Shown here in pieces: positions 457 to 20,973 of a stretch of 39,179 bases of DNA; the first letter of the stretch is position 1, and every line of letters begins with the position of its first letter. Origin of the DNA: a virus. A model generated the notes under the pieces. It did no database searches. It was not told the DNA's origin and saw only the letters and a program-made list of their open reading frames with translations. The stretch is from IMG/VR virus record IMGVR_UViG_3300047494_000192, positions 1 through 39,179 of that record, one strand, 5' to 3'. The translations under genes were made by a program, and so were the position numbers.

Positions 457-2172
457 TCAAGGGCAACTTGCCATGGAGTGCGGGCATGCTCCGGCATCCA
501 CGGACGTGGCAGGCAGGTAGGCTTTCGTGATGCCGTAGCCGATGGCGGGGCTGCCTGCCTGCAGGGCGAAGTTCGCGGCGACAGGCGGCGTTGTCTCGGT
601 TCCCGTCGTGGTCCCGCCGACGCTCACCCAAAGCGGGTTGGTGGCGCATTTGTTTGATGTGCACGAATAGACGGAGACGCCACCTGGGGCGTCCGTGCCG
701 AACATTGGGTGCTCGCCATTGTTGCCGAAGGAGCCATAGCAGCCGCTTCCCATGGTGATATTGTTCGTAAAGACGTCGGCCGGCGTGCTGGATCCGGCGG
801 GGCCGCCCAGTATGGCTGCGTTGAATTGCGCATAGGGCGCCGTGTTAAAGGCGCAGGAGCCGACAACGGCAGGGATCGCGACGGAGATATTATTGATGAA
901 GGTGTTCGATGCTCCGAGCACGGTTGCATTTCCGGAGCTGTCGATTTGGCCCCGGCCGCTGGCATTGTCGTATGGGTCCAGATAGCCGTTGTAGGCAGTG
1001 TTGTTCGCCACAATGACATTCGAAGAATTGAATATGTGGACGCTGCCGCCGCCGGAGTTGTAGGTAACGTTATTATTGATGAGCGTGGAGTATGGATAGA
1101 CCGACGATCCAGAAATGGTGCCGCCAGTATTTGCCCAGTTCAGGGTATCCATGATGATATTGTTGCCATCAGTGTCATACGCGCTGCCAGAACTGCCACA
1201 GGTGGTGATGGCATTGTTATAGAGGACGTTGAATTGGACGGCATTGTGAATGGTGGGGCCGCCGGTGCTGGCGCCGATGTTCCCATAGACAGCCGTGTTC
1301 GCGTCGTCCGCCGTGCGGGTGGGGTCGATCGGATAAAGATTTGCGAATGAGATGCCAGATCCCTGCGCGGAGCAGCCAGCATTCGAGTTGCTGGTGATCT
1401 TATTGTGCAAGACGAAGAAGTATTCACCTTCGTTCATTTGCACGCCGGATTGGCCATATCCAGAAATGACGTTGTTTGTGATCCAGACGTGATGCACCGC
1501 CGGCACATAATTGCCGGTGCCGTTGAAGAGCGCGATGCCCTGTCCGAACGTCGTCTCGGATGCAGCCGCGAGGGTGAACCCGTCAATGATGACGTAGCTG
1601 CCACCCATGGGCTGCGCGGTTTTCCAGGCGAAAGAGCCGTTATAGCCCCCGGCATTCACATCCGTGACGGTGCAAGCGTCCATGGTGGTGCACCGATAGA
1701 CGACATAGCCGGTGGAGCTCGCAAGGTTGCCGCCACGATCGATGGCAACGCCGGCGGCATAGGTGCCAGGCGCGACGTTGATGCACGTGCCGGCCGCGGC
1801 GCCGCCAGTGGCAAGGCTGTCGTTTGCGTGCTGCAAGGTGGCCCAGGGCGCTGCGCTGGTGCCGGCGGCGCTGTCGCTGCCTGTGGTGGCCACGTATTTG
1901 TTCGTTGTGCATGAATAGTAGGGCGCAGCAAACAGGGCGGCGGACGGCCCGAAGACAGGATTGACCGGGCCGCCAGTGGACAGGCCGCCGCCGGCGCAGG
2001 GCTGGGCGGCGCCAGCCGTGCCCGTGCCGCAGTAGAACTGATTCGTGGCGGGCAGTGCCGCGGCGAGGTTTCCGCCGCCCTGGTTCGGCGGCAACACCCG
2101 ATTGGCCCATGCCCCCGGGGCGCAGGCGAACGCCAGTGCGGCAGCAAGGGCCGCGATCCGAGGGGCGTTCAT
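457..2172 (-). CDS. exported right-handed beta-helix protein (tailspike or depolymerase-like)
   Basis: 571 aa. Residues 1-23 form a clear Sec signal peptide (MNAPRI n-region, Ala-rich core, AWA cleavage site before Asn24). Around residues 92-116 a segment with TGSD, AGTSAAPW and TLQHA marks the entry to a right-handed parallel beta-helix of the DUF1565/pectate-lyase-like type, followed by repeated Asn-rich rungs (ITNNVIS, VLHNKIT, VLYNN, IVANNTAYN, FINNISV). The mature part has 14 cysteines, an even and unusually high number. Such folds bind or cleave polysaccharide; no catalytic residues can be named. It is the last gene of the minus-strand operon and overlaps the stop of the preceding gene by one base. 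It lies downstream of the lysis genes, so it could be a tailspike or a secreted conversion factor. Confidence 0.75.
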   Translation of the reverse strand: MNAPRIAALAAALAFACAPGAWANRVLPPNQGGGNLAAALPATNQFYCGTGTAGAAQPCAGGGLSTGGPVNPVFGPSAALFAAPYYSCTTNKYVATTGSDSAAGTSAAPWATLQHANDSLATGGAAAGTCINVAPGTYAAGVAIDRGGNLASSTGYVVYRCTTMDACTVTDVNAGGYNGSFAWKTAQPMGGSYVIIDGFTLAAASETTFGQGIALFNGTGNYVPAVHHVWITNNVISGYGQSGVQMNEGEYFFVLHNKITSNSNAGCSAQGSGISFANLYPIDPTRTADDANTAVYGNIGASTGGPTIHNAVQFNVLYNNAITTCGSSGSAYDTDGNNIIMDTLNWANTGGTISGSSVYPYSTLINNNVTYNSGGGSVHIFNSSNVIVANNTAYNGYLDPYDNASGRGQIDSSGNATVLGASNTFINNISVAIPAVVGSCAFNTAPYAQFNAAILGGPAGSSTPADVFTNNITMGSGCYGSFGNNGEHPMFGTDAPGGVSVYSCTSNKCATNPLWVSVGGTTTGTETTPPVAANFALQAGSPAIGYGITKAYLPATSVDAGACPHSMASCP

Positions 2173-2555
2173 CAGTATTGCTCCAGCTGCGCGTAGTGCG
2201 TCTGGCCGGCGGCCTGGATGCAGTTGATGGCGTCCTGCGACACGCCAACGCCGGCGTCATCGATGCCGGCGTTGAGCGGAAAGCCGTTGGCGCCGATGAC
2301 AGCCGGGTTGGCGGCGGCGGTGCCCTTCGCACACCAGATGGTCACCGCGGCGGAGCTGCCGGAATCGATGGCAGTGTCCCGCAGCACCAGGCGCACGCGC
2401 GGATGAGCGCCAGCCGTCACAGCCGGGAAAATGTCCGTTGCGACCTGCGGCACCACCTGCGATTTGTCGACTCGCGAGCCGATGGCAGAGGTTTGCGCGA
2501 AGGCGGCGCACGGCAAAGCGATGCCCAGCGCGAGGGCGCACAGTGTCAGCTTCAT
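2172..2555 (-). CDS. small exported protein of unknown function
   Basis: 127 aa from the ATG at 2555, chosen because GGAG lies 7 nt upstream; an ATG at 2561 would sit directly on that ribosome site. Residues 1-20 are a textbook signal peptide (MKLTLCALALG, ending AFA before Gln21). The mature protein is small, mostly beta-like and has two cysteines (IWCAKG and INCIQ) that could form one disulfide. No family is recognised. It sits between the endolysin and the exported beta-helix protein, with one-base stop/start overlap to the latter, so the two are probably translated together and may act together outside the cytoplasm. Confidence 0.7.
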   Translation of the reverse strand: MKLTLCALALGIALPCAAFAQTSAIGSRVDKSQVVPQVATDIFPAVTAGAHPRVRLVLRDTAIDSGSSAAVTIWCAKGTAAANPAVIGANGFPLNAGIDDAGVGVSQDAINCIQAAGQTHYAQLEQY

Positions 2556-2569
2556 GGTCATTCTCCGGG

Positions 2570-3121
2570 TTAGACAGTGGCGGGCGGGGTGATCCACTGG
2601 CGGGCAAGGGCGGCATCGGCGAGGAGCCGGCGGCTCCAGCCGGCGTCGAATTCCGCGGCGCCATGCATGTCACGTAGGCGCGCTTCGTAGACGGCGGCGA
2701 AACTGTCCACGAAGGCGGTGGGATCCATGGCGGCGATCGCGGCCAGGGTGATGGGACCGAGGCGGCCGTCCACCTTCACGCAGGCGACGGTCTGCAGCAG
2801 ATCCACTGCGGTGCCCTGGCCGGACAGAATGCAGCACTCGAACGCCATCAGATCGATGCCGGCGGGCAGAACGTCCCCCTGCACTGGCAACCAGAACCAG
2901 GCGTGCAGGATGGTGGACAGGTCCGCCTGGGTAGCCTGGCGGAATTGCGCCACCGTGGGCCAGGGGCGCCCGTGAGCGCGCTCCCAGGCCGCATAGATGG
3001 CGAAGGTGACGGCCCAGGCCGTGGCGCCCCCGGCGTCGCCACGGGTGGTGTGGAAGGGCTGGCCGTCGTTATCCGGCTGCCAGGTGACAGCCAGACAACG
3101 ATCGAAGCCGGGGATGCTCAC
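2570..3121 (-). CDS. GH108-family endolysin (N-acetylmuramidase-like) with altered active-site motif
   Basis: 183 aa, GTG start, overlapping the preceding lipoprotein stop (GTGA). The layout matches the glycoside hydrolase 108 / PG_binding_3 endolysins: an FDR start (residues 6-8), GDAGGATAW at 28-36 where the family has DPGG.T..G, and a C-terminal predicted peptidoglycan-binding half around residues 112-150 (KVDGRLGPITLAAI). The role would be cleavage of host murein at lysis. It lacks a signal peptide, so release would depend on the holin. The family's catalytic Glu in the EGG(Y/W) motif is absent: residues 14-23 read WQPDNDGQPF. Asp17 or Asp19 might substitute, or the protein may only bind murein. 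It is preceded by a lipoprotein and holin gene, as expected for a lysis cassette. Confidence 0.7.
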   Translation of the reverse strand: MSIPGFDRCLAVTWQPDNDGQPFHTTRGDAGGATAWAVTFAIYAAWERAHGRPWPTVAQFRQATQADLSTILHAWFWLPVQGDVLPAGIDLMAFECCILSGQGTAVDLLQTVACVKVDGRLGPITLAAIAAMDPTAFVDSFAAVYEARLRDMHGAAEFDAGWSRRLLADAALARQWITPPATV

Positions 3122-3516
3122 GGCGCGGGCGCGGCCGCGGCCGGAGCGGCGGAGGTGGGCGCGCCGGCCGGGACGGCAATCGGCACGTTGGTGACAGGGG
3201 TGGCAGGCGGCGGCACGGGCGCGCCGACCTTGGCGCCGACGGCAGCAGCAGCCAGGTCACATTCATGCTGCACCATGGCGGCGCCGGCGTTCGTGGCCAG
3301 CACAGCCACCGGGGCCGCCGCGGAGCTGCCGGCTGACGCATCGATGAGGCCGACCACCACGGAGCCGTCCGCCTTTTCCAGCGTGCAGAAGAGCTGGCCG
3401 GCCGGCGATGTGAGGCCGTTGACGACAGCGCCGGAGGTGGGAGACGTGCCGGTGAAGAAACCGCATCCGCCGAGCAGGAAAACGCTGGCGGAAGCCGTGA
3501 GAGATGCAAAACGCAT
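3118..3516 (-). CDS. small lipoprotein, candidate outer-membrane spanin subunit
   Basis: 132 aa from the ATG at 3516, which has AGGAG 8 nt upstream; a longer reading from a TTG at 3564 would run through an AT-rich repeat and is rejected. The N terminus (MRFASLTASASVF) leads to a lipobox LLGGC, so Cys18 should be lipidated after signal peptidase II cleavage. The mature part is Ala/Pro-rich with a proline-rich C terminus (PVPPPATPV and later Ala-Pro repeats), a composition seen in o-spanins such as Rz1. Two further cysteines are present. It lies between holin and endolysin genes. Spanin function is inferred from position and lipobox only; no sequence family is recognised. Confidence 0.6.
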   Translation of the reverse strand: MRFASLTASASVFLLGGCGFFTGTSPTSGAVVNGLTSPAGQLFCTLEKADGSVVVGLIDASAGSSAAAPVAVLATNAGAAMVQHECDLAAAAVGAKVGAPVPPPATPVTNVPIAVPAGAPTSAAPAAAAPAP

Positions 3517-3532
3517 GTGATCTACTCCTGAT

Positions 3533-3572
3533 GAAGAAAAAAGTTTTTTGCTTCTTTTTTTCAAAAAAGAAG
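3533..3572 (-). repeat. AT-rich dispersed element, copy 1 (inverted relative to copies 2 and 3)
   Basis: A 40-bp stretch of A and T runs between the holin-like gene and the lipoprotein gene. On the minus strand it contains the 16-bp core GAAGCAAAAAACTTTT that is identical in two other intergenic gaps (16202-16232 and 29342-29371). The arms CTTCTTTTTT, AAAAAAAGAAG and a second TTTTTTCTTC can form two mutually exclusive hairpins sharing GAAG. Function unknown; an attenuator or a host-type intergenic element are both possible. Confidence 0.7.
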
Positions 3573-3587
3573 GTGACTTGCCGGCGT

Positions 3588-4025
3588 CTACTTGCCGACG
3601 GGCGGCGAGACGGGGACGGGCGCCAGCGGCGCCGGCGTGGGACCAGGTGCGGCGGCCGACGCGATATTGCTGGAGATGGACGCAAGGCCGATCTGGGCGT
3701 CCACCTTGCTGGCGATCATTTCGGGCGTGTAGCCGAGCCGCTCGGCGGCATCGCCCGCGTGATCCAGGACATACTGAACGCCCACGGCCAGGCCTGGGGC
3801 CACATTGGCGATGCGGGTGGGGACGGTGAGCGGCGGGACGCCCTTAGCCGCGGCTTCCTCGGCCTGCTGCATGGCGCCCAAGGCGTTCTTGGTGGCTTCA
3901 CTCAGCACCTGGCGGGCCGTGGCGTCCTTGATGTGCGCGGCGATCCAGGCGAGGGCCACCGGCGTGGCAATCGAGAAGATGCCGTCCACGATCACCGTGG
4001 CGACGTTTGTGAGATCGATTGTCAT
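3588..4025 (-). CDS. putative holin (LLH-type, one membrane segment)
   Basis: 145 aa with AAGG 7 nt before the ATG. Residues 9-30 (VIVDGIFSIATPVALAWIAAHI) form one membrane helix near the N terminus. It is followed by a long amphipathic helix (about 34-60) and a segment with AERLGYTPEMIASKVDAQIG (about 94-113), then a Pro/Ala-rich tail. This pattern, an N-terminal membrane anchor, amphipathic helix and conserved Tyr-rich helical end, resembles LLH-family holins. It would form lesions in the inner membrane and let the downstream GH108 endolysin through. The call is based on pattern and lysis-cassette position rather than a diagnostic motif. Confidence 0.55.
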   Translation of the reverse strand: MTIDLTNVATVIVDGIFSIATPVALAWIAAHIKDATARQVLSEATKNALGAMQQAEEAAAKGVPPLTVPTRIANVAPGLAVGVQYVLDHAGDAAERLGYTPEMIASKVDAQIGLASISSNIASAAAPGPTPAPLAPVPVSPPVGK

Positions 4026-4037
4026 GGGCAGCCTTTT

Positions 4038-4259
4038 TCAGAAAGGGATGCGAAACGTCAGCAGCACCGCGCCGCGTAGCTCGGGCCAAGGCGACGCAAA
4101 ACGCGGTGGATGCGCACGCTCCTGGTCGAAGAGCGATCGGCGGGAAAGTTCGAGGGACACGAAGGGCAGCAGCGGGACAAAGATGGCTGGTTGGGGCGGG
4201 GCTGGCTGCAGGAGCTGCGCCGTGACGGAGAGCGCGCGCATGTGCCAGAGGTGATGCAT
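4038..4259 (-). CDS. small basic protein in the lysis cassette, unknown
   Basis: 73 aa from an ATG 7 nt beyond the stop of the preceding coiled-coil gene, with AGGG as a weak ribosome site. The sequence has a moderately hydrophobic stretch (residues 14-38, Pro-rich: LLQPAPPQPAIFVPLLPFV) that could be a weak membrane segment, and a basic C-terminal half. No family is recognised. The frame fills an otherwise empty gap in a tightly packed operon, which is the main support. Small overlapping or adjacent frames after a spanin-like gene are common in lysis cassettes, but no lipobox is present. Confidence 0.4.
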   Translation of the reverse strand: MHHLWHMRALSVTAQLLQPAPPQPAIFVPLLPFVSLELSRRSLFDQERAHPPRFASPWPELRGAVLLTFRIPF

Positions 4260-4266
4260 GGCTGCC

Positions 4267-4662
4267 CTATTCGATGTCGTCTTCAAGAAACGGGATCGGG
4301 TCAACAGGCGTCATGTCGCCGAGCTTTTGGCGGAGGTTCGCCACTTCGTGCCGCAGGTGATGCGCGATGCGATCGACGCGCCGGGCGGAGGCTTCCCAGG
4401 TCATCGCCTCGGCACGAAGCCGGTCATTGTCCTCGATCAGCCGATCCCGGAAATTGCGCTCAGCGATGTCGAGATGACTGCGCTGGGAGTCGGCGTCCTT
4501 CTTTTCGGCTTTCTGGATGGGATCTGGCTCGTTTTCGCGATCGCGTTGCCATTTCACCCAAAACGCCATGGCCGCCGCGAAGGCCGAACCGATGAAGGCC
4601 GGGATGACGGTGGAAAATCCGGCGCTGGTAGGCAGGTGAGCCAGCAATGTCGGATCGGCCAT
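4267..4662 (-). CDS. membrane-anchored coiled-coil protein, candidate inner-membrane spanin
   Basis: 131 aa. Residues 16-37 form a single membrane helix (FSTVIPAFIGSAFAAAMAFWVKW), followed immediately by a long charged helix (about 38-118) rich in Arg, Glu and Asp with heptad-like spacing (RSHLDIAERNFRDRLIEDN). An N-terminal membrane helix plus coiled coil of about 80-90 residues is the architecture of Rz-type i-spanins, which bridge to an outer-membrane lipoprotein. The lipoprotein at 3118-3516 could be the partner. It starts one base after the stop of the preceding membrane protein gene. Without family recognition the spanin call stays tentative. Confidence 0.5.
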   Translation of the reverse strand: MADPTLLAHLPTSAGFSTVIPAFIGSAFAAAMAFWVKWQRDRENEPDPIQKAEKKDADSQRSHLDIAERNFRDRLIEDNDRLRAEAMTWEASARRVDRIAHHLRHEVANLRQKLGDMTPVDPIPFLEDDIE

Positions 4663-4663
4663 T

Positions 4664-5131
4664 TCACTTCTTTTCTCCGGGACGCACTATATTTTTCCAC
4701 ATGGCCATCACGTTCGTGGCCAGGCCGGCGACATAAAAGCCGACGGCGCCCGGCGGGTAATGGCCGAGCTGCAGAAAGTTCAAAACGATGCTGCCTAAAA
4801 GGAATGTGGCCCCCATAGCTGCGATGGCGCGCGCCCACCACAGGTCCGAAATAAGCGCCATGAATTGGCATAGCCCCACAACCAGGCTGAACCTTTCCCA
4901 GAACCGCTCCGGCGCCACCATCAGCAGCGGCCAGAAGTTGTGGCTGGACAGCGCGTCCGGGGACAGCGAGTTGATGGCGGACCAGGTGCACAGCGCGAAG
5001 GAGCTGAAGAACTCCGCCCACCAAAAATCCCGATGCGTGACGACGCGCAAGGTGGCCCAGACCTGCCGCAGCCAACGCGTCACCAGGTAGTCCTCTTGTA
5101 TTGGCGCAATAGAGATTGCCTTTGGTTGCAT
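4664..5131 (-). CDS. polytopic membrane protein of the lysis region
   Basis: 155 aa from the ATG at 5131, which has a perfect AGGAGG 6 nt upstream; an in-frame ATG at 5137 would abut that site and is less likely. Three to four hydrophobic helices can be seen: FFSSFALCTWSAI (about 41-55), FSLVVGLCQFMALI (about 80-95), AIAAMGATFLLGSIVLNFL (about 102-121) and AVGFYVAGLATNVMAMW (about 129-146). The N terminus is hydrophilic and the C terminus basic (KNIVRPGEKK). It heads the lysis cassette, directly after the glycine-rich fibre gene. It could be a second holin or antiholin, but no family is recognised. Confidence 0.6.
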   Translation of the reverse strand: MQPKAISIAPIQEDYLVTRWLRQVWATLRVVTHRDFWWAEFFSSFALCTWSAINSLSPDALSSHNFWPLLMVAPERFWERFSLVVGLCQFMALISDLWWARAIAAMGATFLLGSIVLNFLQLGHYPPGAVGFYVAGLATNVMAMWKNIVRPGEKK

Positions 5132-5162
5132 TCTCATCCTCCTATATTTGTTTTCGAGGGTC

Positions 5163-5186
5163 CGGAGCCGCTATGAATCGGCTCCG
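5163..5186 (-). terminator. GC-rich hairpin between fibre and lysis genes, no U-tract
   Basis: An 8-bp perfect stem (CGGAGCCG at 5163-5170 with CGGCTCCG at 5179-5186) and an 8-nt loop lie in the 77-bp gap after the glycine-rich fibre gene. No T run follows on the minus strand, so it is not a canonical intrinsic terminator. It could slow or stabilise the transcript between fibre and lysis genes. Confidence 0.35.
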
Positions 5187-5208
5187 CCCTCGCGGGGTGG
5201 GGCTCATC

Positions 5209-7644
5209 TCAGCTCGCACCGCAGATCTGGATGCCGGCCGGGCCGCCGTCACCACCTGGACCCCCGCCGGTTGAGCCGTCACCGCCACCACCGCCGCCAG
5301 CTCCGAGAGCGCCAGCTCCCCCAGCGCCGCCTACTCCAGCAGAATTATTAGCCCCGCCGGCACCACCTGAGCCTTGAAGCTGGCCCGCAACGGTGGTGCC
5401 AGCAGCCCCAGCAGCCCCAGCGGTTGTGCCACCGAGCGCATTTGTAATAATACCCGCGCGACCTCCGTTGCCTCCCGCAAGCAAGGCCTGCACGGTAGCC
5501 ATGCCAGCCCCGGAGCCAGCCCCCGATGCACCCGAGATCGACGCACCACCCAAGGCACCAGCTGCGGCGTTAACACCGGCCGCACCTGAACCCGGCGTGC
5601 TTTGAGAGGTAGGCGCTGAGTTGCCAGCGCTTATACCAACGCCGTTAAGCCCACCCAGCACAGGTGCGGTTCCCGCGGTCGTCCCCGATGAATTACCCCC
5701 GGCGCCTCCCATGCACCCGCCCGTGCCACCAGATGCGGCATTTACAGCCGTCCCGCCTACGCTCGAGGTGCCGGCAGGATATGCGATATAGCCAAATGCG
5801 GAGCTTGAGGTGCCAGCCACCCCGTTTGATGGAGGCGTGCCGTGCACGCCAGCAGTGCCAACGACCAGGGTTATAGAGCTTGGGAAATTAGCGACAGACT
5901 GCCACGGCACATCGCACCGACCACCACCGCTTGCGCCGGAACCACCAGAGTAAGCGGTGCCGGTTACCGAAGTGACGCCCGACGCTCCGGCATTTCCCGC
6001 TGAGAGGACAGTCGCGCTAAAGATCTTTGCGGTTGGGAACAATGTGGCGAGTGTCGTGGTGGTCGTGGTCGAAATCAGTGTGCAGCTTGTCGAACTTGCT
6101 GCAGCGGTCGCCGAGAGCGTGCCGCTAGAAAGCGCTAGCCCGGCGCCAGGTGTGACAGCTTGCGCAACACCTGCCGCGCCTGAACCGCCGTAAAGCTGGC
6201 CGGTGGTAGCCGAGGGCAGAGCCGCTGACACGTTGGTCTTAGTGGCGAGCGTGCCGCCCGTGCTGTCGATAGCGGTGACAGTACCGCCGCCTGAGCCAAT
6301 GGACAGCGAACTCATCACCTGGGGGTTGTAGGTCGGGTCGTTGGCGATGCGGAGTAGGCCGGGGGTAAGCGTGCCGCAAACCGACTTGGTGTATGAGGCC
6401 TCATCACCCTGGCCCTTGATGCTCAGGTATCCTGTCAGACCGCAGCCCACAGTTACTTGCGTCCCTGCGGCAGTGGCTGTGCTAAAATTGATAGCGATGT
6501 TCTTGCCGTATTGCACATTCAAGCCACCGCCGGTGCCGGCGCCCGGCATGCTGCGTGCATTGTCGAGTGTGATGTTGCTCACGGCAGAGCTGGTGCCTGC
6601 GGCAGTTATCAAGAAATTGTAGTTGCCGGCGCTCGGGCTGACCGCAAGCACATTCTGCAAGACAATGGATTGCACAAAGCCGGTGAGCGCTGTGGAGCCG
6701 ATGCGGTAGTTGCTGCCCCCGAGAGAGTTTTCAACGTTGACCGCGTCAAGCGTAATCTGACGCACAGGCGATGTAATGTTACCGTTTTCGAGGACGAAGC
6801 CCTCACCCACAGAGCTGTAAACTCGGATTTTGTGGAAGTCGTCGACGTTGCTGGCATCCTGCGTGCCGGTGGAAGAAATGTCAATCGCTGGCTTAGTCGC
6901 GGTCCCTGTGTTGTAACAGGTCAAGTCCTCGACATTGCTTTCACGCAGGAACGCATGTGTCTGGTTGAGAGTGCCGCCAGCCGACAGACAATAGCCGGGC
7001 ACGTCATAAACCGACACACGCTCTATTCGAGCGGAGTCCACATTGTCGCTCAGGACAATGGCATCCTGCCCCGTGGATGCCGTGTTGCCGGTGATGCTGA
7101 TGTCGTGGAGATTGCAACCGTTATTGTTGCCGGTGGCGCCGGCATTAATGTTCGGCAAAATTGTGGGTGTGGTGAACTGAACAGGCGTCTGAGAGCAAGA
7201 GAACAATGTGCCGGTAAAGCCTGAGCCCAGCTCCAAGAAGGAGCTGAACATGCGATTGCCTCCCAGGGAGGCCGGGACAGATGGTGCAAACTGCGTTGCA
7301 AGCGGAGTGTTTAGCGGCCAGATGCCTGACGGGATGTAGACCGGGGTAAAGCTGCCCGACGCATAATTGCTGTTGAACTTCGCAATCGCTTTGCCGAGCG
7401 CCGGGCTGTAGTCGCTACCATCCGTTACCAGATAGAACGCGCGGATGTTTAACCCACGGCTGTCCTGCGCGAAGATGTTGTTCGGCATGGGCGTGGGCGT
7501 GCCGGGCAACGTGACGGTGCCGACAGACACATCCAAGCCCGTAGGTAATTGGCCGAAGATGTAGACATACGGTGAGTCCGCGCGCGCAGAACCCGCTCCT
7601 AGAACACAAGCGAGCGCAGATGTGGCTAGAAGCGGGTGACGCAT
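5209..7644 (-). CDS. exported beta-helix tail fibre / adhesin with glycine-rich C terminus
   Basis: 811 aa. Residues 1-22 are a signal peptide (MRHPLLATSALACVLGAGSARA before Asp). A pectate-lyase-3-like entry follows (LVTDGSDYSPALGKAIAKF about 72-90, VYIPSGIWPL about 102-111), then rungs such as GCNLHDISITGNTAS and DSARIERVSVYDVPGYCLSAGG. From about residue 540 to the end the chain is extremely rich in Gly, Ala, Ser and Thr, ending in GGPAGIQICGAS. Gly-rich ends of this kind occur in phage adhesins with polyglycine helix bundles and carry receptor specificity. Ten cysteines are present in the mature part. It is likely a receptor-binding or host-surface-degrading protein; the signal peptide is very unusual for a tail fibre. 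Confidence 0.75.
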   Translation of the reverse strand: MRHPLLATSALACVLGAGSARADSPYVYIFGQLPTGLDVSVGTVTLPGTPTPMPNNIFAQDSRGLNIRAFYLVTDGSDYSPALGKAIAKFNSNYASGSFTPVYIPSGIWPLNTPLATQFAPSVPASLGGNRMFSSFLELGSGFTGTLFSCSQTPVQFTTPTILPNINAGATGNNNGCNLHDISITGNTASTGQDAIVLSDNVDSARIERVSVYDVPGYCLSAGGTLNQTHAFLRESNVEDLTCYNTGTATKPAIDISSTGTQDASNVDDFHKIRVYSSVGEGFVLENGNITSPVRQITLDAVNVENSLGGSNYRIGSTALTGFVQSIVLQNVLAVSPSAGNYNFLITAAGTSSAVSNITLDNARSMPGAGTGGGLNVQYGKNIAINFSTATAAGTQVTVGCGLTGYLSIKGQGDEASYTKSVCGTLTPGLLRIANDPTYNPQVMSSLSIGSGGGTVTAIDSTGGTLATKTNVSAALPSATTGQLYGGSGAAGVAQAVTPGAGLALSSGTLSATAAASSTSCTLISTTTTTTLATLFPTAKIFSATVLSAGNAGASGVTSVTGTAYSGGSGASGGGRCDVPWQSVANFPSSITLVVGTAGVHGTPPSNGVAGTSSSAFGYIAYPAGTSSVGGTAVNAASGGTGGCMGGAGGNSSGTTAGTAPVLGGLNGVGISAGNSAPTSQSTPGSGAAGVNAAAGALGGASISGASGAGSGAGMATVQALLAGGNGGRAGIITNALGGTTAGAAGAAGTTVAGQLQGSGGAGGANNSAGVGGAGGAGALGAGGGGGGDGSTGGGPGGDGGPAGIQICGAS

Positions 7645-7646
7645 GA

Positions 7647-8081
7647 TTACTGGGACTCCCCGACGATGGTCAGGGTCGAGCCCGTCGCGCCGATGGCGGT
7701 AAGAGCCGTGTTCGGCACGATCTGTCCGTTGTAGTTACTGACAGAGCCTGCGGTGACCAGGAATGCGCCAAGGCCGGTGCACACCGCTGTGCTAGCGTTC
7801 GCGCTAATGGTGATGGTGGCCGTCGCAAAACTCATGCACGCGTAGCCGGAACCCTGCAGCTGATATGACAGACGGTTCTTGCTGCCTGCGGCCACCACCG
7901 TCGCCGCGGTCGTGGTGATTGCGGCGTTGTAGCCGGTGACGGCGCTGTTGATGGATGTGAAGGTGGTGGCCAAGGTGGACGGAAAGGAAGCTGGGGCGGC
8001 CGGCGCCTGCGCATACGCGCTGCACGTCAGAAGCCCCAGCGCGGACGCGCAGAGCATTGTTCGGAAGAAGCTCTTCATCAT
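7647..8081 (-). CDS. small exported protein, paralogue of the following gene product
   Basis: 144 aa from the ATG at 8081, which overlaps the upstream stop (ATGA); an adjacent ATG at 8078 is equally possible. A longer reading to 8432 is antisense-like and rejected. Residues 1-24 form a signal peptide ending SAYA before Gln. The C-terminal 75 residues repeat the C-terminal domain of the 197-aa neighbour: SYQLQGSG.AC.SFAT, then two-residue-spaced beta strands, AFLVTAGS, and GSTLTIVGESQ at the end. Two cysteines (ACMSF, AVCTG) align with those of the neighbour and may form a disulfide. The shared domain looks like a small beta-sandwich. Probably a fibre-associated or receptor-binding accessory protein. 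Confidence 0.7.
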   Translation of the reverse strand: MMKSFFRTMLCASALGLLTCSAYAQAPAAPASFPSTLATTFTSINSAVTGYNAAITTTAATVVAAGSKNRLSYQLQGSGYACMSFATATITISANASTAVCTGLGAFLVTAGSVSNYNGQIVPNTALTAIGATGSTLTIVGESQ

Positions 8082-8671
8082 TGCTGTTCCCATACGAGGT
8101 TGAGGGTGGACCCACTGCTTTCCACGATGGAGAGCGCGGATGTTGGCACAAAGGGGAACGCACTGTTGTAAGTGCTCCCTGCTTGCACAAGAAAAGCCGC
8201 ATTGCCGGTGCACGTGGATGCGTTGCCGGTGCCCGCTATGGAAATCGAAACCGTGGCCCATGACACACACGCCGTGCCAGATCCTTGGACCTGGTAGCTG
8301 ACCCGGAAACGTCCTGAGTTCGCAGGCACTGCCGTGGATACAGACATGGTTGCCACAGCGTTGCCGCCGAGCGGCGTGGATTGGACATAGGAGGTGCTGC
8401 CCCCGCCGCCACTTCCGCTCGCTTGCGGACATGGCAGCGGCGAGCCTGGGCCGCAGATATTTCCAGCGCCGTCCGTGGGGACGACGCTCAGCGCGCCATG
8501 GTTGTCCGTTAGCACTTCATGCAGGAAGCCGTCCGGGCCTGTTCCCAGGTCAACCTGCGCGTTGCTGGGAATGGCATCGATGCTGGTAAAGCTAGGCGTG
8601 GCAGCAGGCGCCGCCCAGGCGAACACGGGCGCCAGGACAAGCGCCAGCGCGCCCCAAAGTGCGTGTTTCAT
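8078..8671 (-). CDS. exported protein, larger paralogue with extra N-terminal domain
   Basis: 197 aa with AGGAG well placed before the ATG. Residues 1-20 are a signal peptide (MKHALWGALALVLAPVFAWA). Residues about 25-85 form a separate small domain (IDAIPSNAQVDLG, GFLHEVLTDN, CGPGSPLPCPQ) ending in a Gly/Ser linker (ASGSGGGGSTS). The last 75 residues share a domain with the 144-aa protein encoded next: SYQVQGSGTACVSWAT, AFLVQAGS, PTSALS, GSTLNLV. Four cysteines are present. The linker suggests a two-domain adapter or adhesin attached to a larger fibre. No named family is recognised. Confidence 0.7.
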   Translation of the reverse strand: MKHALWGALALVLAPVFAWAAPAATPSFTSIDAIPSNAQVDLGTGPDGFLHEVLTDNHGALSVVPTDGAGNICGPGSPLPCPQASGSGGGGSTSYVQSTPLGGNAVATMSVSTAVPANSGRFRVSYQVQGSGTACVSWATVSISIAGTGNASTCTGNAAFLVQAGSTYNSAFPFVPTSALSIVESSGSTLNLVWEQQ

Positions 8672-8705
8672 CCGATGGCTCCTGGTCAGATCGTGAGTGG
8701 CGGGA

Positions 8706-11700
8706 TCAGCAGCCGCTGGCCCAGTAGCGGCCGGTGACGCCGAGCGTGATGGGTGCGTCGGAGGTGAGGCCGCTAAAAGGCAAAGTGTTCGCGCTGCTGG
8801 ACGCGCCGCTTTTCAGGCCGCGCAGCACCAGATAGGTGCTCGTGCCGACGCTTTCCCACTCGATTGAGGTGGCACCGCCCGGCCAGGTGAAGGCGCTGTA
8901 GTTGGTGACGGCGAGATCATCCACCGTGCCCGACTCATGCGGGCGTGGCAGGCCATTGAACTGCAGCAAACCCACGCCGTTGACGATGTGCGGTGTGGCG
9001 GTAATGAAGCCATACACAAAGACGCTGCATTTTCCATCGGCTGTGGCATCAGCCTTGAACGTCCCGGCGGCCGTGACACTGGACAGTGTCATAACGTCCG
9101 TCCCATTCGCGTCCGTCAGGGTCGGCGTCCATCCGCCGGTGGCATGCGAAATGTAGTTCAAGAGGTTCCAGCGCTGCCCGATGCGGACGAGCTGAAGCAG
9201 ACCATTTTGGCCCACTTTGATGGTGGGCATGCTGCCATCCACCATGCTGGTGCTGTGCCAGGTGGCTGGATACTGGCCGCCGATCCCGACCGCGTCCTTG
9301 ATGGTGATGATCTGCCCGTTGCAGGGCATGTCATCTTCGTAGATGTCATGTGTGGACGCGCCGTTGAACGTGATAAGCAAGTCGTTGCAACTGTCATTCA
9401 GCTTTAAGACAGCGCTTTGATCATAGATGCTGTCCACTGGCATATTGCGATTGACGGCAGTGATGTTCGTGTATGGCGCCTGCAGGTTGAAGACATAGCC
9501 CGGCAGGATCTGCGCTGTCGTGTTGCAGCCCAGCCCGATGCGACCACCGATATAATCGATGAAGGTGGTCAGGCACCCGGCCGGCACAGTGCCGAAGAGC
9601 AGGTCTGAAACCGGCATGTTGGCGGTCAGCCCAGCCGGCATGGAGTAGGCTTCGACGTAGATGACATTGCCGCCGAGCGCGGTTGCCTGGAAGGCGGTCA
9701 GCCAATTTGCCTGCTCATCGATCGGCGCGGAGGTGAAGCCGAAGCCGTCGCCGATGGCCACAGGTCCCGTTACGCTGCAGGTGGACACCAAAGTAACCGT
9801 CAACGTGCCGTCGGAGTTGGTGACGGAGCTTTGAACAGGGCAGTTGCTGAGCGATGCCGGATTATCGGTGTCGGACGCCACCATGCCCGGTATGAGAGCC
9901 CACCCCGACAGGCGGGCGATGCTCACCGTCACCGTGTGGTCGCCGGCAACCTGAGTGGCCGTGGCGGTCCCCGCCTGCGAATTGTAGAGGACGTCCGACG
10001 TCATCGTGAAATTGGCCGCGCTCTCCTGCAGCTGATAGTTCGCTGTCAGCGGGCTGATCTTGCCGTAGCCGCATACATTGCTGGTCGAGATATCGTGGTT
10101 GTCCCTGGCACGCATGCACACGGTCAGCGGCGGGCCCCCGGGATAGGTCCCCATCAAATTATGGTCGAATTCGTTGTTTTGGCCGCCGCCGTAGATGTCC
10201 CACATGATCGCGAGCAGGGGCTTTGGCAGCGGCTGCGTGGCATTCTTGGCACCGAGGCCGACGTAGTAGTTGTTGTGGTCCCCCTTGATCTCCGAAATGT
10301 TCTCGCAATGGCAGAAGTCGCCGTCGATCTGAGCCTGATTGCCGCTCATGTGCAGCCAGGGCATGTTGGTGCCAAGGCCGTTGCCGAACCTGACGAATTC
10401 GTTGGTGTTGCCGCAGCCGTTGTTGTTGATCTTGACGCCCTGCAGCCCCACGCCTGAATTCGCGTGGAAGCCCAGGCAGCCCGAGGCGCCCCCGGCGAAG
10501 AAGCTGTCCTCGATCGTGTAATCGAAGTGGCCGAGTTCGTTCGTTAGCTGGCCGCCGATCAGGGTCTGGTTTGGGGCGTAGAACACCAGGTTTTGGCTGG
10601 TGATCTCAATATCGTCGCCGGGCTGCACGGTGATCTGGCAGTCCGTGAAGATCGTGTTTCCGACAACCGAGGCGCTGGCGCAACTGTCGGGAATGCCCTG
10701 GGCAATGGACATATTCTCGCTGGCGACGGTCTGGGCGATGTTCAGCGTGTAGTGGCCGACGCCACCCGGCGTGCCATCCACCTGGGCAAGGATCCTCGTG
10801 CCGGCGGCGAGAGCGGTGCTGCCCCCCGCGGTGACCACATTGTTGAAGGTGATCGGCCATTGGCCCGGGCTTGTGACGTTCAGGACCGTGCCAGAGGCGC
10901 TTGCCGTGAAGGTGATTCCTGGATTGGTCAGGTCACCCATGGGCAGGCCAAACGTGTAATTCGTCAGCGGCCCGCTGAAGGTAATCGAGTTCGATGTCGC
11001 CGACAGGGCAATCAGGTGGCCTGCGCCGCTGCCCGGCCACATCCGCACCGTCATGTCTCTGATCTTGACATCGTTGCCGTTCGTGATCATGGCGCCTGTT
11101 GCCCAGGCATTCACGTTGGCAAGCGGCGTCGATTGGCTGGGCACATAGCCCAGGCCGATCGTCACGTTATGGATGTTGAGAGTGGGATGGGTATTATTGA
11201 AATAGGGGCGGAGGCCGATGCCACCGAAGCCTGTGCGGGCGACGGACAGATACGCCAGCTCAAGCGAGCCGGACCGGACCTGGACCGGATTTTTGCCGTA
11301 AACGATGCCGTCGGTGACCCCATACCACTGGAGGCGCGTGCACATCTCGCAATCGCCCTCAACGCGCACGCTTGCATCGTTGAGCACCCAGGCACGGTTG
11401 AAGAGGTAGGGGTTTGCGTTGCCCGGAATGTGCAGACGCACGCCGGACATGGATAGATATTGGCTGTCGAGATTTGTGCCGGCGATCGCAGCGGCCTTGT
11501 CGAAAGCGCCCTGGAAGCCGCACCAGGCCTGTTCGTCATTGACGGACGTGGCCTCCGGGCAGATTTGTTGCTGCGACGGTGACCCGAACCGGATGCCGAG
11601 TGGATTGGTGGCGTTGGCGTTTGCCACCGCACCATAGCTGGTCACATCCACGAGCTGCGCGAACCGGCCATCATCGGCCGCGGCAACATATCCGGTGATC

Positions 11701-11987
11701 TGGCCGGCGAGATAATTGCCGATCGGCAAGCTCGCGTAAGGCACGATGGTGCCGGCGGCCATCTTGCCGGTGCTGTCCATTGTCAGGAAGGCAGCGTTGG
11801 CCAGAGGCGGCACCTGGAGCGAGCTGGCGACGGGATGATCCAGCGTGGGGCTGTGCTCGCAGGACGTCCCGCCGAACATGGCCATGCCACCATTGTTAAA
11901 GGCAGTGCCGGCGCAAGGCGGCAGGGCATGGGCGCGCGGAGCCGCCGCCAGCAGAAGGACTGCAAGGGCGAAGAGACGCTTGATCAT
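8706..11987 (-). CDS. large exported tailspike-like protein with beta-helix
   Basis: 1093 aa, the largest protein in the window. Residues 1-21 are a signal peptide (MIKRLFALAVLLLAAAPRAHA). Residues about 110-130 (VDVTSYGAVANANATNP) are the usual entry of pectate-lyase-3 beta-helices, followed by long runs of Asn-rich rungs (VRVEGDCEMCTRLQWYG, LNIHNVTIGLGY, LGFHANSGVGLQGVKINNNGCGN). The C-terminal 250 residues look like a separate beta domain with typical fibre elements (GGWTPTLTDANGTDVM). The mature chain has 22 cysteines, including CEMC and CHC clusters. A role in binding or degrading host surface polysaccharide is inferred. It lies between the small exported paralogue pair and the fibre adaptor gene. 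Confidence 0.75.
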   Translation of the reverse strand: MIKRLFALAVLLLAAAPRAHALPPCAGTAFNNGGMAMFGGTSCEHSPTLDHPVASSLQVPPLANAAFLTMDSTGKMAAGTIVPYASLPIGNYLAGQITGYVAAADDGRFAQLVDVTSYGAVANANATNPLGIRFGSPSQQQICPEATSVNDEQAWCGFQGAFDKAAAIAGTNLDSQYLSMSGVRLHIPGNANPYLFNRAWVLNDASVRVEGDCEMCTRLQWYGVTDGIVYGKNPVQVRSGSLELAYLSVARTGFGGIGLRPYFNNTHPTLNIHNVTIGLGYVPSQSTPLANVNAWATGAMITNGNDVKIRDMTVRMWPGSGAGHLIALSATSNSITFSGPLTNYTFGLPMGDLTNPGITFTASASGTVLNVTSPGQWPITFNNVVTAGGSTALAAGTRILAQVDGTPGGVGHYTLNIAQTVASENMSIAQGIPDSCASASVVGNTIFTDCQITVQPGDDIEITSQNLVFYAPNQTLIGGQLTNELGHFDYTIEDSFFAGGASGCLGFHANSGVGLQGVKINNNGCGNTNEFVRFGNGLGTNMPWLHMSGNQAQIDGDFCHCENISEIKGDHNNYYVGLGAKNATQPLPKPLLAIMWDIYGGGQNNEFDHNLMGTYPGGPPLTVCMRARDNHDISTSNVCGYGKISPLTANYQLQESAANFTMTSDVLYNSQAGTATATQVAGDHTVTVSIARLSGWALIPGMVASDTDNPASLSNCPVQSSVTNSDGTLTVTLVSTCSVTGPVAIGDGFGFTSAPIDEQANWLTAFQATALGGNVIYVEAYSMPAGLTANMPVSDLLFGTVPAGCLTTFIDYIGGRIGLGCNTTAQILPGYVFNLQAPYTNITAVNRNMPVDSIYDQSAVLKLNDSCNDLLITFNGASTHDIYEDDMPCNGQIITIKDAVGIGGQYPATWHSTSMVDGSMPTIKVGQNGLLQLVRIGQRWNLLNYISHATGGWTPTLTDANGTDVMTLSSVTAAGTFKADATADGKCSVFVYGFITATPHIVNGVGLLQFNGLPRPHESGTVDDLAVTNYSAFTWPGGATSIEWESVGTSTYLVLRGLKSGASSSANTLPFSGLTSDAPITLGVTGRYWASGC

Positions 11988-11995
11988 GCGGGGGC

Positions 11996-12631
11996 CTAGC
12001 TGGTGGGCTGGGTGGTGGGGAGGAGCGAAGCGTCGGCGGCGGCGAACACGGCCTCGGCGAAGGCCTTCCGCTCCTGCATGGGCAGGCCGTTGAAGCTGGC
12101 GAAGCTGAGCGCGGCAATTTCGGATGTGGACACCTGCATCGTGCTGCCGTCCGTCATGGTGAACACAAAATGCTGGCCATCCGTGCTGAGAACGATGGAA
12201 TAGACGCCGACGCCGGTTGGACCCTCCAGCAGGATCAGATCCGTGCTGAAGCTGGCGTTGGGGCTGATCGGCCAGACACGCAGCCAGATGTTGCGCGTGA
12301 CGGTGTAGCCGCCGGCCGTTTGGAAGCTGACCGTGATGAGGTAATCCGCCAGCGGATTGGTGACCACGCCGCCGCTGATGGTCCAGCTGAGCGCGGTGGG
12401 ACCCAGCACCAGCGGCTGAAACACCAGGCCGGGGGGGGAGGAGACGATCTCCACCGTGCCGGTCTGAATGGTGTCATTGCCGATGCTGGCCAGGAACGAG
12501 GTGGCATCCAGCTGGTAGGGCAGGATGTCCGCCAGCCCCTTGTCTATCCAGCGCAATTCCTTGCGCGCGCCGGACAAGTTCGCGGGCAGCGTGACGGTGA
12601 AGCCGCCGCCGATGATCCCGGGTGTGGGCAT
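11996..12631 (-). CDS. phage fibre-tail adaptor-like protein
   Basis: 211 aa without signal peptide or membrane segment. Residues about 25-120 resemble fibre-tail adaptor proteins of tailed phages: a basic/aromatic start (KELRWIDKGLADILPYQLD), an SWTI..GVVT core and an ITVSFQTAGGYTVTRNIWLRV strand pair. The remaining part carries a short beta repeat (FVFTMTDGSTMQV) and a helical end (GLPMQERKAFAEAVFAAA). Such adaptors join fibres to the baseplate. Its position, between two exported fibre genes and just after the baseplate module, fits that role. It is the only fibre-region protein without an export signal, so it would be the cytoplasmic half of any baseplate-fibre joint. Confidence 0.55.
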   Translation of the reverse strand: MPTPGIIGGGFTVTLPANLSGARKELRWIDKGLADILPYQLDATSFLASIGNDTIQTGTVEIVSSPPGLVFQPLVLGPTALSWTISGGVVTNPLADYLITVSFQTAGGYTVTRNIWLRVWPISPNASFSTDLILLEGPTGVGVYSIVLSTDGQHFVFTMTDGSTMQVSTSEIAALSFASFNGLPMQERKAFAEAVFAAADASLLPTTQPTS

Positions 12632-12634
12632 AGG

Positions 12635-13474
12635 TCAGAACGATCCCGTGCCGACAAAGATGTAGCTGACGCGCGCGGTGATGGTCAGCGTGTTGGTGGA
12701 CACGGATGACGCGGTGGCGGTGAAGGTAAAGGTGTATGTGGTTCCAGCGGTGACAGAGACCACGATCTGATGGAACTGAGACGCGCCATAGGTGCTGTCC
12801 GTGGAACTCGGCTCCGCACCTGGTCCAGCCGATAGTTGCATGAATGTGGGGCCGCCGACCGGGTCCAGATCCTGGTTTCCGAAGCCCGACACAAGGCAGA
12901 AGCCGTTCTGCGTGGGCGTGAAGGCGGCGGTGACAGTGATGGGCACTCCGGGCGTCATTGTGACACCCTGTGCCGTGGTGGACACGTGGGCCGCGGCCTG
13001 CGGCAGGTTGAGCGTTTTGGCAAGCACCAGGTCACCCTGATCCGAGCCATCCACGGCGAGACGAAGCCGGGCGACCGCGTTGTCCCAGCCGAGATAGAGT
13101 TTGTTCGTCCCCTGCCCCAGGCCGCCGCCCTGCTGCACGGGCGTGAATGTCGGCACCAGGGCTTGCAGGCAGGCGCTGAGCTGATTGTAGGCGCTCATAT
13201 TGATGGTGGCGCTGCAGGGCGCGGCGGTGATGGCGCTGCTGAGCTCGCCGCCGACCTTATTCAGCCAGTAATCCGTCACCTGCGTGCCGTTGACGCCGCT
13301 GCCGCCTTCGTTGAACCAGCCGTTCGTGGTGGTGGGCAGAGAGACGGCGTTCGGCGAGGTGAGCGCGTCCGATCCATAGATCAGCGCACCGCCGCTTTGC
13401 GCGGCCGCCGGCGCGCCGGACAAGCCGGTGGCGGCCGCTGCCAGGAGCAGCAGGGCAAACACGCGCTTCAGCAT
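12635..13474 (-). CDS. exported tail fibre-like protein
   Basis: 279 aa. Residues 1-25 form a signal peptide (MLKRVFALLLLAAAATGLSG, ending PAAA before Gln-Ser). The mature part begins with a fibre-like segment (GWFNEGGSGVNGTQVTDYWLNKVGGEL, the DYWLN motif being typical of tail-fibre N-terminal regions) and has NKLYLGWDN..RLRLAVDGSDQGDLV (about 131-158), a motif common in phage tail fibres. The C-terminal half is an all-beta domain (VSVTAGTTYTFTFTATA, SYIFVGTGSF). It immediately follows the gp48-like baseplate gene, the usual position of the first fibre gene, so it may be the proximal fibre. Confidence 0.65.
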   Translation of the reverse strand: MLKRVFALLLLAAAATGLSGAPAAAQSGGALIYGSDALTSPNAVSLPTTTNGWFNEGGSGVNGTQVTDYWLNKVGGELSSAITAAPCSATINMSAYNQLSACLQALVPTFTPVQQGGGLGQGTNKLYLGWDNAVARLRLAVDGSDQGDLVLAKTLNLPQAAAHVSTTAQGVTMTPGVPITVTAAFTPTQNGFCLVSGFGNQDLDPVGGPTFMQLSAGPGAEPSSTDSTYGASQFHQIVVSVTAGTTYTFTFTATASSVSTNTLTITARVSYIFVGTGSF

Positions 13475-13478: not shown

Positions 13479-14057
13479 TCAGCTTCCGTAAATGAAGTTC
13501 AGAATGGCGTGCGCTGGCGCGATCTGCCGCATGACGCATTCGAGCTGGGTGTTAGATTCATATTCGGTCAGGTCATCACCGGCTTCTGACTGGCCGGCGC
13601 GGAACAGGATCGGCGTGACGGCGCCGACGACGTGGATGTACCAGATGTAACTGCCCAGCGAGCCCTGGGAGACGGTGATGCGGAAGCCCAGGGCAGCTGC
13701 CACGCTAATGAAATAGGCCGCCGATTGCCCCCCCACTTCGGCGATCTTGGCCAGCAGCGCGCCGCGGCGCTGCTGCAAGGTGGCACCCAGCGGCGTGCAG
13801 CAGTCCGGCAGCCCGAAATCCGCTTCCCAGAACGGCAGGAGCTGCGTGGTGGTGCTGGGGACGATCTCCACCTCAGACAGGTTCCTGGCGCGGCCGTGGA
13901 GCTGTGAGAACGCCGTGGCACAGCCTTCCAGCACGGCGGCGAGAACCGGGCCGTTCCAGGCGTCTCCGGGCGGCAGGGCGGCCTGCAAGCTGCCGGCGAA
14001 GTCCGCCTGCTTGGCGTATGCCCAGGGGTTGCTGTGCTGGACCGGAGATAGGCTCAT
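13479..14057 (-). CDS. Mu gp48-like baseplate protein (YmfQ/DUF2313)
   Basis: 192 aa, of usual length for the YmfQ family. Diagnostic features are the SNPWAYAKQADFAGSLQAALPPGDAW start (about 10-34), EVEIVPSTTTQLLPFWEADFGLPD (about 62-85), and an Arg-rich helix followed by YFISVAAALGF (about 114-124). The protein is part of the outer baseplate wedge, next to gp47. Its ATG overlaps the stop of the gp47 gene by 4 bp, so the two are coupled. No signal peptide. Confidence 0.85.
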   Translation of the reverse strand: MSLSPVQHSNPWAYAKQADFAGSLQAALPPGDAWNGPVLAAVLEGCATAFSQLHGRARNLSEVEIVPSTTTQLLPFWEADFGLPDCCTPLGATLQQRRGALLAKIAEVGGQSAAYFISVAAALGFRITVSQGSLGSYIWYIHVVGAVTPILFRAGQSEAGDDLTEYESNTQLECVMRQIAPAHAILNFIYGS

Positions 14058-15193
14058 GGGGCGGTGACGGCGCCGAGGACAGCCAGGTGGCCGGTGGCGC
14101 TGACCACGTCCGCGCTGGGCGCAGTCAGATCAAAGCTGCCCACGCCGATGGACTGGGTGATGGCGTCACTGATGGCCTGCAGCTGGGTGGTGCCGCCGGT
14201 GCCGCCCTGGGGAATGCCGTCTCCATAGGGCGCGTTGCCAGGCGTGGTGGCGGCGAAGAGGTTGGTGAGGCTGACGGTGGCGTTGGCTAGCGCCTGGGCC
14301 TTCGTGAAACCGGCCTGGGGGACCAAGTTGGAGATGGTGACGGCAATGGCGTCCTCCGTCAGCGTAAGGGGCGCCACGCCGCCGGGGGCGATATCCGCCG
14401 GCTGATAGATGGCCATCTGGGCAGCGACGGCAGTGTTGTCGGCCGAGGTGGGCAGGATGGAGCCGCCGCCGGCCGCGCGGCCATCGAAGACGAAGGCGTA
14501 ATCCACCGTGCCGGCGCCGCGATTGGTGGGATAGACCCAGACGCGGGTGACTCCTGGCACCAGCTTCGCCCAGGCGACATAGTCCCGCTTGGCGCCACCC
14601 TGGGGCGGGAGCTGCTGACGGGCCAGGATGCGAAGCTGGTAGGCAGCGTCCGACTCCTCGTTGACACCGCCCACCAGGCCGCCGGCGGCCACCGGAACCT
14701 GCGCATTAACCCCCGCCACGCCCACGGACAGCACCAGGTTGGTTGCCGCCGCCTGGTTCGATGCGGTGCCGCCCTGCGTGCCAATAACAGCGCCGGTGGC
14801 TGTGCCGCTGCCGTTCAGCGTGACAGCGGCAGTCAGCTGATAGGTCTGCGTGCCATCCTGGGTGGCCAGCAGCGCGCCGGCAGGCACCGTGGAGGACGGC
14901 ACGCCATAGAAGGTGACGTTTCCGGCGGCGGGCGACGCAGGCTGCCGGAACACGCCCAGGGGGTTGCCCTTGGCATCCAGGTAAATGCCCTCACTGGTGG
15001 CGACGAAGAACCAGCGGGCAAAATTGTCCAGGTAGGCGTATTCGCTGGCGAGCTCGCGACCGAGCACGGCGCCGATCGCCGTGATGACGCCGATGGGCAG
15101 CGGCGCCGTGGTGCCGGGAACGGCGGCCTGGATGCCTGTGATCACCCGGCTGATGAGCACCGGCAGGCTGGGCCGCGGATAGACCGTGCTCAC
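14054..15193 (-). CDS. baseplate J-like wedge protein (Mu gp47 type)
   Basis: 379 aa from the GTG at 15193, which overlaps the gp46-like stop (GTGA) and has AGGGGG about 6 nt upstream; a longer reading to 15238 is not supported. The N terminus (STVYPRPSLPVLISRVITGIQA) and the GAVLGRELASEYAYLDNFARWFFVAT segment (about 43-70) are typical of baseplate J proteins, as are the middle NEESDAAYQLRILARQQ (about 179-195) and VTRVWVYPTNRGAGTVDYAFVFDG motifs. It builds the baseplate wedge of contractile tails. It contains no cysteine that I can see, in contrast to the exported fibre proteins. Confidence 0.9.
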   Translation of the reverse strand: MSTVYPRPSLPVLISRVITGIQAAVPGTTAPLPIGVITAIGAVLGRELASEYAYLDNFARWFFVATSEGIYLDAKGNPLGVFRQPASPAAGNVTFYGVPSSTVPAGALLATQDGTQTYQLTAAVTLNGSGTATGAVIGTQGGTASNQAAATNLVLSVGVAGVNAQVPVAAGGLVGGVNEESDAAYQLRILARQQLPPQGGAKRDYVAWAKLVPGVTRVWVYPTNRGAGTVDYAFVFDGRAAGGGSILPTSADNTAVAAQMAIYQPADIAPGGVAPLTLTEDAIAVTISNLVPQAGFTKAQALANATVSLTNLFAATTPGNAPYGDGIPQGGTGGTTQLQAISDAITQSIGVGSFDLTAPSADVVSATGHLAVLGAVTAP

Positions 15194-15690: not shown

Positions 15691-15691
15691 G

Positions 15692-16186: not shown

Positions 16187-16201
16187 GAAAACTTCCAAAC
16201 A

Positions 16202-16232
16202 TTTTTTGAAAAAAAGAAGCAAAAAACTTTTT
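16202..16232 (+). repeat. AT-rich dispersed element, copy 2
   Basis: A 31-bp A/T run fills most of the gap between the gp44-like and gp45-like genes. It carries the core GAAGCAAAAAACTTTT found also at 29342-29371 (same orientation) and 3533-3572 (opposite). In an operon where most genes overlap, these are among the few true intergenic gaps. Confidence 0.7.
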
Positions 16233-16240
16233 GCCGGTTT

Positions 16241-17374: not shown

Positions 17375-17385
17375 TCTTCAAACCT

Positions 17386-20969: not shown

Positions 20970-20973
20970 AGGC

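Follow-up and report, generated by a model that had tools for sequence, protein, structure and literature searches.

Predicted Sec signal peptides on tail fibre and spike proteins of a Mu-type phage

Do the fibre and spike proteins of a tailed phage ever leave the cytoplasm before they reach the virion, and, if so, where do they go? The question is raised by IMG/VR virus record IMGVR_UViG_3300047494_000192, a 39,179-base stretch from a Mu-type contractile-tail phage (the whole stretch is called the window here), in which a block of fibre, spike and lysis-region genes appears to encode Sec signal peptides (SPs). Textbook accounts have tail fibres made in the cytoplasm with the help of chaperones dedicated to them.

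Predicted signal peptides and paired cysteines in the fibre block

An earlier note on this DNA had claimed that eight genes of the block begin with a Sec-type signal or a lipobox and that the neighbouring baseplate, tail and head genes do not. SPs were called with a rule-based scorer (threshold 3.5), together with shuffled sequences and a negative set, and are thus predicted. Both claims were borne out: the scorer passed all eight block genes, which start with ATG at 13474, 11987, 8671, 8081, 7644, 3516, 2555 and 2172, and none of the 24 other tail, baseplate, head and lysis genes of the window (Fisher p = 1e-7); the Gp77-like fibre adaptor likewise lacks an SP. All eight N-termini have a basic n-region and an uncharged hydrophobic core, followed by an AxA-type site or, in the gene starting at 3516, a lipobox. 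This gives seven SPs of the signal peptidase I type and one lipobox, the AxA-type site having been tested near residues 18-26 and found in 7/8. Shuffled versions of the eight proteins passed at a rate of 0.3-2.7%, and the false-positive rate in related prophages, measured on upstream tail genes with starts picked blind to the SP, was 4 of 575 (0.7%). One alternative start of gp47 (GTG 15193) got through an early, more lenient form of the scorer but fails the stricter form on which the counts rest; upstream matches in gp47 genes were discarded as internal TTG/GTG starts.

Besides the lipoprotein, the block encodes three large spikes (1093, 811 and 571 amino acids, aa), a short fibre that we call F1 (279 aa) and three small proteins. 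The claim that the set holds all large beta-helical fibres stood only in part: the 571-aa protein has a Beta_helix match that falls below the Pfam cut-off (E=5e-4), but the 811- and 1093-aa proteins have no beta-helix match. Nor can the whole block be read as fibre, since the eight include a lipoprotein of the lysis type, and the 571-aa product is similar to a secreted protein encoded in a bacterial chromosome.

The strongest evidence for working SPs that the sequences offer is cysteine parity, which is independent of the N-terminus. Paired cysteines would be expected if folding takes place in the oxidising periplasm. In a set that we assembled ourselves, non-redundant at 50% identity and including L200 and three large proteins of L003 (the closest relative of the window, with a gp48 63% identical to the window's), some of them with an SP by inspection only, the cysteine count was even in 45/49 SP-bearing mature fibres compared with 22/50 SP-less fibre-like proteins (p = 2e-7) and 67/158 tail and baseplate proteins (p = 1.5e-10). 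Adding four other, mostly unpaired SP-bearing F1 proteins gave p = 4e-6, and leaving out the window and L003 gave p = 1e-6; the cysteine-free SP-bearing Acetobacter proteins L028 and L037 lay outside the test. Within the window alone, the count was even in seven of eight proteins (lipobox cysteine excluded) against 5 of 14 (p = 0.03).

Recurrence on the fibres of other phages

The earlier note had made its significance depend on repetition in relatives, and the pattern does repeat: SP-bearing fibres were found in related viral contigs, in prophages of Acetobacteraceae and Burkholderiaceae, in phage phiAX1 and in phages of the Bcep781 group. The F1 family is the most instructive. F1 was identified as a tail fibre through its homology (alignment with L004, L003 and L229) to SP-less virion-type fibres directly behind gp48, and it has PHROG tail fiber matches (phrog_1858 E=1.2e-4). 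Members with an SP occur in the window, L224, L225, L005 and L228, and members without one in L004, L229, L003 and, more distantly, phiKM1. The initiator Met of SP-less F1 coincides with the mature N-terminus of SP-bearing F1, placing the SP exactly before the ancestral start: L005 reads ...NFANATGPAAMIYGTDAVSTPDSV where SP-less L004 opens with MPAAMIFGTDAVSTPDAV, and over the 71 residues from there on their identity is 82%. Removal of the SP therefore restores the N-terminus of an SP-less F1 fibre. This start alignment and identity suggest that an SP was added to, or dropped from, a virion-type fibre whose attachment end stayed unchanged.

In L003, five fibre-region genes have SP-like N-termini (at 12548, ~14509, 15443, ~16750 and 17687) and F1 has none. 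The scorer passes 2/5 (12548 and 16716-17690); the remaining three were judged SP-like by eye. One of the five, at 15443-16738, encodes an SGNH/GDSL-like protein between two SP-bearing fibres. L005 and L004 likewise carry on the pattern.

In a prophage panel anchored on gp48, the scorer flagged large downstream genes in 15/53 Acetobacteraceae and 12/31 Burkholderiaceae loci. By eye, about half of the flagged Burkholderiaceae loci proved to hold membrane or acyltransferase-like proteins and six held true SP-bearing fibres (L141, L143, L144, L147, L148 and L154); a few flagged Acetobacteraceae genes were also non-fibre, and upstream positives were mostly internal gp47 starts. SP-bearing fibre genes directly follow gp48 or the adaptor. 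The Burkholderiaceae panel rules out that SP-bearing fibres are confined to Acetobacteraceae. That such a fibre could be the sole one, as in L143, was also rejected, since record L192, in which this fibre also occurs, encodes an SP-less fibre as well.

A tblastn search with the Burkholderia fibres led to cultured phages: Bcep781 gp49, Bcep43 gp48, Bcep1 gp51, BcepNY3 gp50 and BgManors32 gp48. Of these, Bcep781, Bcep1, BcepNY3 and BgManors32 are Burkholderia myophages. The N-terminus of Bcep781 gp49 reads MNMKKNKHVLFGVLLTACGLPAFA/QFAPGQVLTAAQLN (a slash marks the predicted cleavage site), and its GenBank note has 'possible tail fiber; possible signal peptide domain', as does that of Bcep1 gp51. 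Among 40 members of this family in the viral-contig scan 34 pass the scorer, a proportion biased upwards because the query alignment held SP-bearing members only; three identical members (MSTSNYTPGQILTAAALN) are clearly SP-less. Mean identity in the Burkholderia family is 34% over the last 18 SP residues and 77% over the first 18 mature residues, the latter inflated by the collecting motif that lies there. The fibre of Bcep43 (L195, IMGVR_UViG_638275715_000001) lacks the MNMKKNKH n-region of Bcep781 gp49, its frame opening at a GTG inside the SP, through either a sequencing error or a start change.

Like the window proteins, gp49 of Bcep781 and its counterparts in Bcep1, BcepNY3 and BgManors32 (phrog_33320 and relatives) are tail-module fibres with a Sec SP, a conserved mature start and multiple cysteines. 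These phages have one SP-bearing and one SP-less fibre, whereas the window has seven SP proteins and a lipoprotein. The mature motif of the family, QFxPGQxLTAAxLN, is absent from the window proteins, which are alike in working but stand outside the family.

The Acetobacter podophage phiAX1 (LC644973, L238), an isolated temperate phage from the same host family as the window, encodes an SP-bearing fibre of 321 aa (26418-27383) and, next to it, an SP-bearing GH66 'cycloisomaltooligosaccharide glucanotransferase' (27387-29312); the latter is annotated from 27492, and a start at the ATG further upstream, at 27387, brings in a clear SP that the annotation misses. It thus matches the window in having two SP-bearing fibre or enzyme genes in its tail region but differs in its P22-like gene set, which has no Mu-type tail. 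The three large window spikes and the adaptor had no tblastn match among cultured phages, phiAX1 included. None of the fibre genes of phiAP1 has an SP, nor does the fibre-type gene behind gp48 in phiKM1.

The novelty suggested by the earlier note is qualified, in that the SPs of Bcep781 gp49 and Bcep1 gp51 already stand, without comment, in GenBank notes. Searches of an open-access library, from which most subscription journals are absent, turned up no paper dealing with SPs on the fibres of tailed phages. Target proteins of phage diversity-generating retroelements have been said to lack SPs, the absence of an SP being taken as support for phage origin (PMC6199706).

Together, the SPs, their recurrence on fibre genes and the paired cysteines mean that export of the SP-bearing fibres and spikes is well supported at the sequence level. 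The proposal in the earlier note that the fibres fold in the periplasm is upheld to this extent: the SPs appear real and recurrent, with paired cysteines arguing for folding outside the cytoplasm. The window proteins would then be tail fibres and spikes that leave the cytoplasm by way of Sec.

Possible destination of the exported proteins

We favour a route, for which the chances look about even, in which the exported fibres dock on the virion at lysis. The fibre and spike proteins of the block would be made as Sec precursors; signal peptidase would remove the SP, and the chains would fold in the periplasm, mostly forming disulfides. Baseplate, adaptor, tail and head would meanwhile assemble in the cytoplasm. 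Opening of the cell by holin, endolysin and spanin would bring the two pools together and, in the most conjectural step, mature fibres would dock on the completed baseplate or adaptor. Attachment at lysis is physically reasonable, since in extracts both P22 tailspikes and T4 long fibres join particles that are already complete. A wider proposal, which we advance tentatively and at slightly below an even chance, is that two-compartment assembly of this kind, with receptor-binding fibres exported by Sec, oxidised in the periplasm and attached at lysis, occurs in at least two bacterial classes, SPs being gained and lost on the same fibre.

A substantial though somewhat doubtful alternative is that the exported proteins stay outside the virion, as late-phase secreted depolymerases or adhesins merely derived from or adjoining fibre genes, which might strip surface polysaccharide, aid progeny release or cover receptors on debris. 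Phages with an SP-bearing fibre usually have an SP-less one as well, Bcep781 included (gp31), so adsorption without the SP-bearing fibre, and hence free secreted spikes, would be possible. The GH66 glycosidase of phiAX1 and the SGNH-type protein of L003 also fit secretion. The latter resembles in idea gp40 of Xanthomonas phage PBR31, an SP-bearing SGNH esterase; like the window proteins, gp40 has an SP and is encoded in the late region, and it is a hydrolase of the tail-associated type, but it lies in the lysis block, and its authors took it for an aid to lysis rather than a fibre (PMC10975493). Likewise, the nearest cellular relative of the 571-aa protein has an SP too, being a chromosomally encoded beta-helix protein (36% identity; L100 8891-10363, in an Acetobacteraceae genome beside genes resembling those for nonribosomal peptide synthetases), and the 571- and 127-aa genes lie past the lysis genes. 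Docking is favoured over secretion by the position of SP-bearing fibre genes directly behind gp48 or the adaptor, by fibre-type N-terminal domains that are intact from the cleavage site onwards, and by F1 homologues that differ at their N-terminal end by the SP alone. Secretion would, moreover, leave the window with a Gp77-like adaptor and no fibre, there being no SP-less fibre for it within 39 kb. A mixture of docked and secreted proteins within one block is quite possible.

Several observations weigh against docking at lysis. Most phages with an SP-bearing fibre also encode a conventional SP-less one, as noted above; the SP-bearing F1 proteins, which are the best virion candidates, have unpaired cysteines (3, 3, 1, 2 and 1); the 571-aa protein looks, from its relatives, to have been acquired from a cellular secreted protein; and the window may be an incomplete genome.

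It is improbable that the block consists of lysogenic-conversion genes, expressed from the prophage as surface or secreted proteins that benefit the host, as with lambda lom and bor. Many relatives are indeed prophages in bacterial genomes and the 571-aa protein is cargo-like, but the genes are on the late strand, with baseplate genes to one side and lysis genes to the other. The same kind of SP-bearing fibre is, moreover, found in Bcep781 and Bcep1, which have been called obligately lytic, or putatively obligately lytic (PMC3765740). We think it just as unlikely that the N-termini, though signal-like, serve not for export but for trimerisation or insertion into the baseplate, as hydrophobic tips that stay uncleaved: the unpaired SP-bearing F1 proteins would fit, but the conserved AxA/Q cleavage sites, the cysteine parity and the SP-less homologues, whose start falls precisely at the cleavage point, do not.

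SP-bearing endolysins and o-spanin lipoproteins are known Sec-exported late proteins of phages, but they serve lysis and are not structural; of the eight block proteins, only that at 3118-3516 fits. It is most simply an ordinary lysis-type lipoprotein and not a fibre, its lipobox and position suiting an o-spanin candidate, although Pfam and PHROG searches gave no family match.

If the docking route is correct, a widespread class of Sec-routed, cysteine-paired fibres would represent a second route of folding and assembly and would explain stable disulfide-rich spikes; it would also bear on the expression of receptor-binding proteins or depolymerases, as the mature chain and in an oxidising compartment. 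If the proteins are merely secreted, they would form a large overlooked class of late phage exoproteins now annotated as tail fibres. The cultured phages Bcep781, BgManors32 and phiAX1 make the destination directly testable.

Gene layout and host of the window

Taken in order along the minus strand, from its right end leftwards, the window carries the head module, the contractile tail and then the SP block, inside which the holin candidate, endolysin and lipoprotein are all situated (Table 1). The tail was assigned to the Mu type by Pfam and PHROG matches to gp45, gp46, gp47 and gp48 homologues and the sheath, in Mu order.

Table 1. Features of the window; a slash marks the predicted cleavage site
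Feature	Position	Strand	Remarks
Head module: large terminase, portal, maturation protease, major head protein		minus
Mu-type baseplate/tail module: gp47, gp46, gp45, gp44/P, N, tape measure, tube, sheath	14054..22869	minus	No SPs
Mu gp48-like baseplate protein	13479..14057	minus	Pfam E=1.6e-26; no SP; anchor of comparison panel
F1, short tail fibre of canonical type, immediately after Mu gp48, 279 aa	12635..13474	minus	SP MLKRVFALLLLAAAATGLSGAPAAA/QSGG; SP score 5.4
Gp77-like fibre-tail adaptor, 211 aa	11996..12631	minus	Pfam PF23148 E=1.4e-8; no SP, no cysteine
Large fibre/spike, 1093 aa	8706..11987	minus	SP MIKRLFALAVLLLAAAPRAHA/LPPC; 22 Cys in mature chain
SP protein, 197 aa	8078..8671	minus	SP MKHALWGALALVLAPVFAWA/APAA
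SP protein, 144 aa	7647..8081	minus	SP MMKSFFRTMLCASALGLLTCSAYA/QAPA
Spike, 811 aa, glycine-rich C-terminus	5209..7644	minus	SP MRHPLLATSALACVLGAGSARA/DSPY; 10 Cys
Holin candidate	3588..4025	minus	phrog_6918 holin E=0.003
Lipoprotein, 132 aa, o-spanin candidate	3118..3516	minus	Lipobox LLGG/C; overlaps endolysin gene
Endolysin, GH108 + PG_binding_3	2570..3121	minus	Pfam E=3.9e-10 and 4e-5; PHROG endolysin 3.7e-23; no SP
SP protein, 127 aa	2172..2555	minus	SP MKLTLCALALGIALPCAAFA/QTSA; 2 Cys
Right-handed beta-helix-like protein, 571 aa	457..2172	minus	SP MNAPRIAALAAALAFACAPGAWA/NRVL; 14 Cys

The 1093-aa protein had no match in Pfam, PHROG or PDB sequence searches, and a PDB sequence search with the adaptor gave none. 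The C-terminal part of the 197-aa protein is similar, by eye, to the product of the next gene, whose start at 8081 lies within a longer open reading frame. Scans with the 571-aa and 197-aa proteins returned only L003 or nothing, L003 holding a 36% identical homologue of the former. AlphaFold models of the 571-aa protein and of the F1 family (predicted local distance difference test scores, pLDDT, of 29 and 50) were both too poor for a fold search.

The host is very probably a member of the Acetobacteraceae, judging by the distribution across genomes of an A-rich intergenic motif of 20-30 bases (TTGAAAAAAGAAGCAAAAAACTTTT) that is present in three copies in the window (3546, 16214 and 29354). 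Its 20-base form occurred in 19/120 Acetobacteraceae genomes, with up to 118 copies in one, and in 0/142 genomes of Alphaproteobacteria at large; the motif is a dispersed repeat and usable as a host marker. The top match of gp48 among bacterial genome contigs was to an Acidocella metagenome-assembled genome (42% identity).

A twin-arginine translocation (Tat)-like motif, RRxFL, precedes the lipobox or core in lysis-region lipoproteins of several acetic-acid-bacterial prophages (L008 17512-18120, L104 12834-13394, L106 9391-9981, L112 11915-12505 and L099 12844-13521), which may therefore be exported folded.

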